The notes under the pieces are model-generated. The model was not told the DNA's origin. It did not search any database and was given only the letters and a program-made list of their open reading frames with translations. A DNA stretch of 7,904 nucleotides from JBFMHD01 sp040752395 [NCBI: Candidatus Hydrogenedentota bacterium] (GTDB lineage Bacteria; JBFMHD01), in assembly GCA_040752395.1 (NCBI GenBank), contig JBFMHD010000128.1, positions 1-7,904 of the forward strand. Direction: 5' to 3'. The position numbers and the translations under genes are program-made. Positions 230 through 7,860 of this stretch are shown here, piece by piece; positions within the stretch are counted from its first letter, which is position 1, and each line of letters begins with the position of its first letter.

Positions 230-874
230 TTAAAAATTTAAATACTTTATCTGATAAGCGATATATTTTATATATTCCTGGAGTATAATTAACGGAAGAT
301 CGTCTTTTTCGAGTAAATTAGTTATTAATTTTTCAGTCTCCTCATAGGTATAATAAAATTTTATATCTTTATTTTTTTTAAATATTTTTTTTATGCAAAA
401 ATCTATTCTCTTTGTATGATATGCGTCCGACACTATTAACACTGAACTAACCGGCTTGTTTTCTATCTCTTTATGTAATAATATCACATCCTTAAATGTA
501 CTTTCAGACCCGCATAATATTTTGTATTTATCATTAGAGAACTTTATTCGTTTAAAGACTTCCTTGATAATAAACTCTTCATTAGCAACAAAACCAAATA
601 TTTTTTCAAATTCTTTTTCAGTGTTTGAAACTGCTGTAGCAGTACACCACATCTGGTTGCCGTATCCCTCATTAAAAAGTTTCAAAGCGTATGGGAGTCT
701 ATAATATGGATGGCCGCCGGGAACAAAAATCACATCAGCTTTTTGTGTTTGTTTATCAAGTATTAAAAATTTACCCAAAATTATGCTTAATTCAAATCTA
801 TAATAAAACGAGACTCCAAAAATAACTACAACAAACAAAAGGAATATAATCCATTTTTTTAAGCTCTCTTGCAA
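230..874 (-). CDS. Membrane-anchored DUF218/YdcF-SanA-like protein
   Basis: This 214-aa protein looks like the DUF218 superfamily (YdcF, SanA, ElyC), envelope-associated proteins of poorly defined biochemistry. After a short basic start there is one membrane segment (residues about 8-25), then a soluble domain. Family-type motifs are VPGGHPYYR (51-59), SESTFKDV (123-130) and VSDAYHTKR (148-156); these correspond to the usual GG...R, the middle S-T-x-(E/D) and the late H-x-x-R positions. The start is TTG at 874-872: it has an AAAGGAG Shine-Dalgarno seven bases upstream, and no ATG lies close by. The start overlaps the end of the receiver-cyclase gene by 16 nt, so the two are probably translationally coupled. 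The anchor suggests the domain faces the periplasm. The family call is moderately firm; the precise role is unknown. Confidence 0.72.
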   Translation of the reverse strand: MQESLKKWIIFLLFVVVIFGVSFYYRFELSIILGKFLILDKQTQKADVIFVPGGHPYYRLPYALKLFNEGYGNQMWCTATAVSNTEKEFEKIFGFVANEEFIIKEVFKRIKFSNDKYKILCGSESTFKDVILLHKEIENKPVSSVLIVSDAYHTKRIDFCIKKIFKKNKDIKFYYTYEETEKLITNLLEKDDLPLIILQEYIKYIAYQIKYLNF

Positions 875-3225
875 ATCCTGTCTCCTTTGTATTTTTCAAA
901 CTCTTCAAATGAATCTAAGTATTTTAAACTATATCTGCCCCCAACCCTATGGATAGCTACTATCTGTTCATCTTCTCTGAAATAATAAATTCTATCGTCC
1001 TCTGCATTTTCTCTAAAAAAATCTATACCGCGTTTGAGAGCATTAAAGAATTCAATATTTTCATGCTTAACATCAGAACCTATAACAAAATTAAGAGTTG
1101 TGTTATTAATATTTTCAAGTATTTTTATGAAATAACGATACCCATCCTCAAGAGAGAACATTCTTTCAATATACAACCCTTTTAATCGCCATTTATTAAT
1201 AGCAGTAATACTTATCTCTTCTACCGCGGCAGGATCATAGATATTTGTTAATAATATGACCTGATTTAACACTTTTTCTTTTGGCGTAGGCTCTATCGTC
1301 AAACTATGCTTTACCCTATATTTCTCAAGTTCTGAAACAACCATCTTCATTTCGTCAAGAAGAGCCTTCTCCTCAAAAGAGATAACCTTTATCTTCCAGG
1401 AATCATTATATAAATCATTGTAAACCAGATAAGCACATAAATCTATAATTGAGACAAATCTGCCAAGACAGGTGCTCTTATCCTTTTTAAGTAATGATTC
1501 TGTTTTTATTCCCTGGTGTAGTTCCCATTTATTCTCAGAAGTAAGATATAAGGTATAATTTGTCCCATTAAACGAATATTTTTTTAGTTCGTTTATAGGT
1601 AAAATTCTATTTTTTTCTTCTCTGTAATACATTTCAAAAATATTAATAATGCTATTCAAATCATCTTTTTTAATGTTTATTTCCTTTTGTTTTTTTAAAA
1701 AATTATCCAGAGTTTTTAACATAAAATTTGATACCCTTATCTCAAAATCTTTTAATTTTGTATAAGACCAGTTCCCGAAATTTCTGGTTTCGTAAACAAT
1801 GGTCCTTTGCACTTTCCAATCCTCTATATATTTTTTAATGATGTGGGTTCTGTATTCATCAATGGTTCTATTCTGAAAAACTTTTAATAAAAAACACCTG
1901 TCAATAAGTTCCTTGAGTTCTTCGTTTTTTTTATCTGTTGCATATTTTCTCACCACAGTGGTTATAAGAAAATATGGGTCGGTTAATCCAGGCTCAGTTA
2001 TAGAATTAAAGATGTTGTTTTTTAAGACGTTACATAACGGCATAGATTCCCCTGGGTTTTCAAAATAGTTTAATAACAGAGCTATTTTAAGCACTGATTT
2101 AAATGGTGATGAGAGCCCCTTTAATATCTGCCATAAAGAAGCGCCTACGAATTCACTTTTGGGCAACTCTAAAATATTCCCCAAATCAATAAATTTAGCT
2201 AAACTTAAATTATTAAACCAATACCTGTATTCGTCATCTGTATAATTAGAAGGTATTATACACCAGAACGGTATCTTTCCTGCAATAAATGTCATTGTTC
2301 TGTAAAACTCTTCTTTTAAAAGATACCCCTGGGCCGAACCCGAACTCTCGCTATCCATTAACCCAAAAACAGCCTCTCTCACATCTCTCTCTTTCATAAC
2401 AAAACAATTTATCTCAAGGTTATGCTTCTGTCTGAGTATCTCTTTTAAATGCTCTGTTTTTAATCTTACAATCTCTAAATATTCTTCATCAACTATTACC
2501 CATACGTCTAAATCAGAATAAGGGGTCTGCGCCACGCTCCCTGCACTACCCATAAAATAGATTCCTTTTATGCCTTTATCAGTAATATCAGGGATTCCCG
2601 TCTCAGAAAAATTTTTTATAAAACTTATATCTTCATTTGTATATTCGTAGTTTTCAATACCAATATCGGTTAAGCCTTTTACATAACCAGGAAGGTTTTT
2701 TTGATTTAAAGAGATTAATAAGTGAAGATACGAAACTAAAAAGGATTTATCAATTTGATAGAAGTTGTATATACGATATTTTTTTATATTATTATATCGA
2801 AGATATGCCCCCAGGTTTTTATTGAATATCTCAAAATAATCTTTATCCTCAGTACCTATCCCCCTGTTTCTCATAATATAATTTATTCTCTCTTTTAGAT
2901 AATTAATTTTTACCGGTTTCTTTATATATTCAAGTATATTCAATGAATCCTTTAATCCGTAATAATCATCCATAGGATATGCGCTTATTAAAATAACAGC
3001 GATCTCTTTATTAAATTCTCTTATTTTTTTGAGAACCTCGATCCCGGATAAATCAGGTAACCCTATATCAAGAAATATTAAATTCGGTTTAAATAAAAAT
3101 GTTTTTCTCAAAGCATCCTCACCACTATGAGCATCTATAAAATCGATCTCACCGATATCTGATAAACTCTGTTTATATAAAAGATGAGTCTGGGCAATAT
3201 CATCAACTATTAGAATTTTATACAT
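859..3225 (-). CDS. Receiver domain fused to class I adenylate cyclase
   Basis: The 788-aa product has two parts. Residues 1-120 are a response-regulator receiver with the acidic pair D8-D9, phospho-acceptor D53 (FLDIGLP), S81 and the K103-P104 switch residues. From about residue 130 it follows enterobacterial CyaA (class I adenylate cyclase, ATP to cAMP). LPGYVKG (178-184) precedes the nucleotidyltransferase core GSAGSVAQTPYSDLDVWV (226-243). S227, S237, D238, D240 and W242 align with E. coli S103, S113, D114, D116 and W118. GSAQGYLLKEEFYRT (296-310), FVGASLWQILKG (359-370) and DRCFLLKVF (442-450) also match. The C-terminal part (about 500-788) is divergent and roughly 180 residues shorter than in the E. 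coli enzyme, whose C-terminus is regulatory. There is no membrane segment. GGAG lies four bases before the ATG. cAMP output under phosphorelay control is inferred. Confidence 0.9.
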   Translation of the reverse strand: MYKILIVDDIAQTHLLYKQSLSDIGEIDFIDAHSGEDALRKTFLFKPNLIFLDIGLPDLSGIEVLKKIREFNKEIAVILISAYPMDDYYGLKDSLNILEYIKKPVKINYLKERINYIMRNRGIGTEDKDYFEIFNKNLGAYLRYNNIKKYRIYNFYQIDKSFLVSYLHLLISLNQKNLPGYVKGLTDIGIENYEYTNEDISFIKNFSETGIPDITDKGIKGIYFMGSAGSVAQTPYSDLDVWVIVDEEYLEIVRLKTEHLKEILRQKHNLEINCFVMKERDVREAVFGLMDSESSGSAQGYLLKEEFYRTMTFIAGKIPFWCIIPSNYTDDEYRYWFNNLSLAKFIDLGNILELPKSEFVGASLWQILKGLSSPFKSVLKIALLLNYFENPGESMPLCNVLKNNIFNSITEPGLTDPYFLITTVVRKYATDKKNEELKELIDRCFLLKVFQNRTIDEYRTHIIKKYIEDWKVQRTIVYETRNFGNWSYTKLKDFEIRVSNFMLKTLDNFLKKQKEINIKKDDLNSIINIFEMYYREEKNRILPINELKKYSFNGTNYTLYLTSENKWELHQGIKTESLLKKDKSTCLGRFVSIIDLCAYLVYNDLYNDSWKIKVISFEEKALLDEMKMVVSELEKYRVKHSLTIEPTPKEKVLNQVILLTNIYDPAAVEEISITAINKWRLKGLYIERMFSLEDGYRYFIKILENINNTTLNFVIGSDVKHENIEFFNALKRGIDFFRENAEDDRIYYFREDEQIVAIHRVGGRYSLKYLDSFEEFEKYKGDRICKRA

Positions 3226-3227
3226 AT

Positions 3228-3233
3228 CTCTCC
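3228..3233 (-). promoter_or_regulatory. Shine-Dalgarno site of the receiver-cyclase gene
   Basis: GGAGAG ends two bases before the ATG, or four if only GGAG is counted. This spacing is short. The site directly adjoins the outer arm (3234-3241) of the hairpin formed by repeat copy A, so folding of the leader could mask or expose it. That effect is inferred. Confidence 0.55.
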
Positions 3234-3277
3234 GAATTCCCTCACGTTGTTACTTTCCGAGGTGGCGACGGGAATTC
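3234..3277 (-). repeat. Repeat copy A: degenerate copy of the tRNA-Gly 3' end plus trailer
   Basis: Bases 3235-3276 match 3377-3418 at 40 of 42 positions. In copy B the matching stretch includes the last 17 bases of the tRNA-Gly gene and its trailer. The two mismatches fall in what would be the acceptor stem. The ends form a perfect 8-bp inverted repeat, GAATTCCC/GGGAATTC. In copy B the arms are CAATTCCC/GGGAATTG, so both partners of the terminal pair changed together. It cannot be a working tRNA because the D and anticodon arms are absent. Confidence 0.8.
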
Positions 3278-3376: not shown

Positions 3377-3418
3377 AATTCCCTCACGTTGTTACTTTCC
3401 GAGCGGGCGACGGGAATT
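3377..3418 (-). repeat. Repeat copy B: tRNA-Gly 3' end and trailer
   Basis: This is the second member of the 42-bp direct repeat pair; starts of the two copies are 142 bp apart. Bases 3402-3418 are the 3' part of tRNA-Gly. The flanks form a perfect 10-bp inverted repeat (3374-3383 with 3412-3421), so the tRNA T-arm sequence can alternatively pair with the trailer RNA. Confidence 0.8.
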
Positions 3419-7608: not shown

Positions 7609-7674
7609 AAGTCTTGAGTCTTGAGTCTTGAGTCCCGAGTCCTGTTTTGACTCACGACTTGCGACTCACGACTC
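7609..7674. repeat. GAGTC heptad array with inverted partner
   Basis: The left half has GAGTC at 7616, 7623, 7630 and 7637, exactly every 7 bases, preceded by an AAGTC unit at 7609. The right half has GACTC at 7649, 7663 and 7670, with GACTT at 7656, again every 7 bases. Between them lie seven bases, CTGTTTT. The halves therefore form an imperfect 26-bp inverted repeat matching at 20 of 26 positions, with the GAGTC cores paired and the 2-base spacers varying. AAAA and TTTT flank the pair. Confidence 0.85.
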
Positions 7675-7860
7675 TTTTCATATCATCTTTAGTTTTTCAT
7701 GCTTTGTGTAGAGCGCAAAAACGCAAAAACGCAATAACCCAAGAACCCAATAACACAACAGTGTAGAGCGCAACCCGCGCTTATGTTGACTCTTCTTGAA
7801 AAAGTTCTGAGTTCGGAGCTCGGAGCTCGGCTCTATTATTACGAACTCCTAACTCCTATC

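Follow-up and report, generated by a model that had tools for sequence, protein, structure and literature searches.

A class I (CyaA-type) adenylate cyclase as the predicted output of a putative response regulator

Introduction

Can a class I adenylate cyclase be the output of a two-component response regulator? The question is raised by one gene in the window (the whole 7,904-nucleotide stretch of DNA analysed here), whose product starts as a receiver and continues as a CyaA-type cyclase. Class I adenylate cyclases are viewed as a PTS-linked housekeeping enzyme of gammaproteobacteria, and the PTS acts on Escherichia coli CyaA through the C-terminal half of that protein. Response regulators with a nucleotide-cyclase output exist as receiver-class III cyclase fusions. 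In the accessible part of one report, the phosphorylated PTS is described as interacting with E. coli CyaA, and the PTS view of class I cyclase regulation as hard to reconcile with some observations (PMC4005916); in that of another, class 1 cyclases are described as not known as environmental sensors (PMC1183210). A light-responsive class I cyclase, CyaA of Vibrio cholerae AJ10, was reported in 2026. It resembles the protein described here in that it is reported to take environmental input directly, but its input is light/flavin, it is without a canonical BLUF or LOV motif, and a receiver is unmentioned in the accessible text of the report (PMC13079933).

The regulation of class I cyclases is unsettled, and a natural receiver fusion would offer a cyclase whose on/off input is defined. 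If true, such a fusion could be used to learn how the class I fold switches, and it would extend the outputs of response regulators by one cyclase class. From its sequence, we propose that the protein is likely to be a response regulator with a cAMP-producing class I adenylate cyclase as its output. Its architecture suggests that cAMP synthesis is wired directly to environmental sensing, and we found no description of such an arrangement for this class.

Gene and Domain Organization

The fusion gene is a single open reading frame that runs from ATG to stop with no internal stops. The features of the gene and of its immediate surroundings are as follows, in window coordinates.

859..3225 (-): receiver-class I adenylate cyclase fusion gene (predicted), 788 aa, ATG start
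2866..3225 (-): receiver domain, residues 1-120; Pfam Response_reg at residues 4-114, E 9.4e-16
3067-3069 (-): predicted phosphorylation site D53, in the receiver
2806..2865 (-): junction, residues 121-140, from DSSP of the AlphaFold model
2263..2805 (-): Adenyl_cycl_N domain, the nucleotidyltransferase core, residues 141-321; Pfam E 3.1e-40; AadA/GlnE-like fold
2500..2553 (-): catalytic core MGSAGSVAQTPYSDLDVW, residues 225-242, from pattern match and invariant columns
1243..2193 (-): Adenylate_cycl domain, residues 345-661; Pfam E 1.1e-31, profile positions 2-333 of 601
862..1242 (-): divergent C-terminal tail, residues 662-788, alpha/beta in the model
3226..3233 (-): likely ribosome-binding site GGAGAGAT, from sequence, adjoining the ATG of the fusion gene
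230..874 (-): downstream gene with a weak DUF218 match, overlapping the fusion gene by 16 nt

All three Pfam domains score above their curated cut-offs (Response_reg 58 vs 30 bits, Adenyl_cycl_N 138.7 vs 27 bits and Adenylate_cycl 110.6 vs 27 bits), which bears out the original prediction, made from the DNA alone, that a receiver and a class I cyclase are joined in one chain. The residues on which that prediction was built (D8, D9, D53, S81, K103, P104, S227, S237, D238, D240 and W242) are all where it had placed them, and profile searches of the protein give significant class I cyclase matches with both Pfam and NCBIfam. A class III or GGDEF output was considered and rejected, as Pfam finds neither a class III (PF00211) nor a GGDEF domain in the protein at E <= 1.

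The Receiver Domain

The receiver site residues D8, D9, D53, S81, Y100 and K103 are all present. In an alignment with seven receivers from other loci, D8, D9, D53, Y100, K103 and P104 are invariant, and S81 stands where the other receivers have Thr. By sequence, the protein therefore has the acidic pocket, phosphorylatable Asp, Ser/Thr and Lys of a two-component response regulator. The predicted model of residues 1-123 has a CheY-like fold and resembles solved receivers at Z about 20, the best match being the VicR receiver (Z 20.4, rmsd 1.6, 121 residues aligned). The receivers of PleD are also among the structure matches (Z 19.9), and PleD (receiver-receiver-GGDEF) is similar in overall plan, with N-terminal receivers ahead of a second-messenger enzyme. 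The predicted output of the fusion protein differs from those of PleD and the receiver-class III fusions in being a class I cyclase with a nucleotidyltransferase fold.

Beside an active cyclase, the receiver might instead have a fixed role in dimerisation, docking or localisation, or be a phosphoryl sink. Such a passive role would suit a Pfam scan of seven window genes, which found no histidine kinase, but all residues of the acidic pocket and of the switch are kept, although a passive domain could do without them, and we regard this explanation as unlikely. A receiver that signals to the cyclase is the reading that we prefer.

The Cyclase Part and Its Catalytic Core

The cyclase part resembles E. 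coli CyaA in its Adenyl_cycl_N and Adenylate_cycl domains and in the corresponding core residues, S227, S237, D238, D240 and W242 of the fusion protein being S103, S113, D114, D116 and W118 of CyaA (numbering corrected for three residues that precede the annotated start). Linder reportedly studied these core residues. The cyclase part differs from CyaA in that the two proteins are 25% identical and that CyaA is without a receiver and has a longer C-terminus. The GASLWQ (residues 361-366) and CFLLKV (residues 444-449) blocks noted originally are both present and align with GASLWQ and CFYLKV of E. coli CyaA. When searched as a DNA pattern, the MGS...SDLDVW core is matched once in the window and in 0 of 200 shuffles.

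Compared with 50 other class I cyclases, to which its overall identity is 20-25%, the fusion protein keeps 29 of the 32 columns that are invariant among them, including all core columns; the kept positions include G226, S227, S237, D238, D240, W242 and K256, and the three changed columns (446, 530 and 683) are outside the core. For less strict columns, conserved in at least 90% of the 50 others, 17 of 34 are kept. All nine NCBIfam class I cyclase (PRK09450) models match the protein, the best being PRK09450.2-1/NF006981 over residues 139-679 (E 1.9e-81, 274 bits), and the equivalog cut-off is missed by a wide margin for all nine (802 bits for the best model). By sequence, the protein has the PF12633 and PF01295 domains and the core residues of a class I adenylate cyclase, and it is placed inside the wider Pfam family and outside every named NCBIfam equivalog.

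The model of residues 130-788 (mean pLDDT 83, pTM 0.82) predicts a nucleotidyltransferase fold with a helical partner at model residues 15-385 (protein residues 144-514). Foldseek gives weak matches for this model, with a best E of 3.8e-3 and no match at E <= 0.001. A second structure comparison places the AadA adenylyltransferase first (Z 12.0, 229 residues aligned, rmsd 4.2); AAD(9) comes next, and the further matches include GlnE (Z 9.0). A PDB sequence search with E. coli CyaA finds no solved structure at E <= 1. An adenylyltransferase match is therefore what would be expected of a true class I cyclase.

Class I cyclase-like genes also occur beside receivers in two gammaproteobacterial genomes, G729 (loci L147 and L166, 5900-9329) and G529 (loci L148 and L167). 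Their products of 897 and 898 aa match PF12633 (E 1.9e-26 and 5.2e-23) and have no GS..SDxDxW core, and both genes overlap an upstream receiver gene by 11 nt; for G729, the product of that receiver gene contains two receiver stretches by Pfam. In L166, MFS transporter and MCP genes are found further upstream. From sequence, the two cyclase-like proteins look like pseudoenzymes coupled to receivers. They reveal a further connection between receivers and class I cyclases, one that is silent on the activity of the fusion protein. Class I homologues of G550 (L146) and G481 (L149) also apparently lack the catalytic core by eye and are possible pseudoenzymes.

The C-terminal part of the fusion protein could likewise be a receiver-regulated pseudoenzyme, or a nucleotidyltransferase that makes something other than cAMP. 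The apparent loss of the core from the gene in the gammaproteobacterial genomes G550, G729, G529 and G481, in two of which (G729 and G529) that gene overlaps a receiver gene, and the adenylyltransferases as nearest solved folds would agree with this. It is improbable, given that every core residue is kept in the fusion protein along with 29 of the 32 invariant positions, and that the fold match is equally expected of the genuine enzyme while the PDB holds no class I structure recognisable by sequence. A changed product or regulation is possible given the long branch of the protein in the tree below and its low equivalog scores.

The C-terminus and Short Class I Cyclases

The cyclase part consists of about 660 residues vs 848 in E. 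coli CyaA, so the C-terminal part is shortened as first noted. The Adenylate_cycl profile is matched to position 333 of 601, and its C-terminal part is unmatched. Confidence for the tail (residues 662-788) is low in the full-length model and low to moderate in the 130-788 model; the extent to which the tail aligns varies between alignments, and structure comparison gives no clear solved-fold match for it (all Z < 5).

The shortened C-terminus had also been taken as evidence of rewiring, and this part of the original prediction is rejected. Two receiver-free short class I cyclases of the NF006981 type, L127 and L128, end at about the same point, with the Adenylate_cycl profile matched likewise to position 341; a short C-terminus is thus common to receiver-free short class I cyclases and by itself is no signal of rewiring. 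The fusion protein is like them in having NF006981 as its best NCBIfam model and an early C-terminal end, but they are without a receiver and score above the cut-off that it misses (872 bits for L127 and 811 bits for the L128 gene). In a tree of the catalytic part with 51 rows, midpoint-rooted for drawing only, the fusion protein groups with L127 and L128 with support of 99/98, a grouping to be read with long-branch caution since the branch of the fusion protein is 2.57 changes per column. Short class I cyclases such as L127 and L128 (genomes G017 and G377), which have about 650-660 aa, are seemingly uncommon within their order: NF006981 matches 121 of 148 genomes of one order, two over the cut-off and 119 below it.

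Search for Further Fusions

PF12633 was searched for in two overlapping draws of genomes and is present in 62 of 398 from Pseudomonadota, with 60 scoring over the cut-off, and in 109 of 369 from a single class, with 107 over it. Loci were read for 51 of the 62 and 25 of the 109 genomes, respectively, and 192 of the 193 loci read have a class I match, the exception being L165. Of the 195 matching ORFs, 186 (178 distinct strings) were left after removal of the fusion protein and of eight ORFs that were truncated at a locus edge or aligned too far in, and some of the 186 are the same gene in two loci. At E <= 1, a receiver HMM finds no receiver in any of these class I cyclase ORFs of Pseudomonadota, which represent at most 178 distinct sequences. 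The HMM was built from eight receivers, that of the fusion protein included, whose own match is by construction; it also detects receivers outside its building set, one example being the L147 protein with two receivers (E 1e-22). Of six cyclase ORFs with long N-terminal stretches (L032, L151, L152, L162, L164 and L174), the first five were scanned with Pfam and contain no Pfam domain in that stretch at E <= 0.01. Four very long open frames (L189, L190, L191 and L192 in G778, G793, G759 and G806; 1834, 2007, 1964 and 3487 aa) begin with a class I cyclase domain, and Pfam finds nothing in them beyond cyclase/nucleotidyltransferase families.

A peptide-pattern scan of genome contigs found no relative of the fusion. 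A core-motif scan of genome contigs found 91 stretches, 87 of them gammaproteobacterial by title and the remaining four from tubeworm endosymbionts (L020, L053 and L082) and a record titled 'Proteobacteria' (L075); where readable, the cyclase ORFs of these stretches contain no receiver. Scans of viral contigs found no relative either. Among the 40 listed of 884 plasmid records matching by tblastn, the cyclase part matches gammaproteobacterial CyaA alone (18 rows), and the other rows are mainly receiver-end matches. As judged from these sequences, the rarity of the fusion applies to Pseudomonadota alone. In the open-access literature searched, no receiver-class I cyclase fusion is described among the matches listed, as judged from titles and in part from the opening of abstracts. 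The original statement that no characterised example was known thus agrees with both the Pseudomonadota sample and the literature searched.

The Junction

DSSP of the AlphaFold model assigns a receiver helix at residues 107-120, followed almost directly by a helix at residues 125-155 that enters the cyclase N domain. Mean pLDDT is 59 at residues 121-130, where the geometry is untrustworthy, and 87 at residues 131-140; the full-length model has a pTM of 0.70, and its relative domain placement is unreliable. The start of E. coli CyaA aligns at about residue 127-130 of the fusion protein, so the receiver lies just ahead of the natural start of the cyclase. The receiver has a GC3 of 0.23, the cyclase parts have values of 0.25-0.31, and the junction of 20 residues has 0.40. 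In synonymous codon use, the receiver correlates with the cyclase part at r 0.84, and 120-codon blocks of the cyclase part correlate with its rest at r 0.66-0.82 (5-95%).

That the gene is an assembly or cloning chimera of response-regulator and cyclase genes, as might be suspected of a single record with no second example found in the Pseudomonadota sample, is most improbable, and an assembly join was rejected, because the two parts are in frame behind one ribosome-binding site, meet at the natural N-terminus of the cyclase and agree in codon usage and GC3. The check for a join that had been suggested originally thus gave no sign of one in frame or codon usage.

Proposed Mechanism

Based on these results, we propose that D53 would be phosphorylated by a histidine kinase encoded elsewhere, and that the receiver would then switch via S81/Y100/K103 and its alpha4-beta5-alpha5 face. 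The change may pass through the short junction to the first helix of the cyclase N domain, where it would set the rate at which ATP is converted to cAMP at the core (S227, S237, D238, D240 and W242). The genes scanned in the window count against this wiring in that no histidine kinase, phosphodiesterase or CRP was found among them. We infer this wiring because of the architecture and the intact residues; phosphorylation, cAMP as the product, the direction of control and dimerisation are put forward as predictions in the same manner. Of the direct phosphorelay control predicted originally, the single chain with complete sites on both sides stands, while the coupling between them is part of the wiring that we infer.

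A plausible if tentative extension is that class I cyclases became direct phosphorelay outputs in a perhaps non-proteobacterial lineage, with cAMP set by a histidine kinase, and that the putative pseudoenzymes of L147 and L148 are a second, split version of this arrangement.

Gene Neighbourhood

The genes of the window are all on the (-) strand, in the order nitroreductase, DJ-1/PfpI, class I/II aminotransferase, HPPK, deoxynucleoside kinase, tRNA-Gly, the fusion gene and the DUF218-like gene. A promoter/terminator scan upstream of the fusion gene found no site on the strand of the gene. The downstream gene, whose DUF218 match (E 5e-5, 23.6 bits) is under the cut-off of 27.6 bits, has a TTG start preceded by GGAG, and by sequence it is probably co-translated with the fusion gene. 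A 42-nt direct repeat (95%) is found at window positions 3235-3276 and 3377-3418; it includes the 3' end of the tRNA-Gly and its flank, and one of the copies reaches to within about 10 nt upstream of the fusion start codon. Degenerate short tandem repeats are present in the intergenic ends of the window, at positions 4-85, 7610-7641 and 7716-7758.
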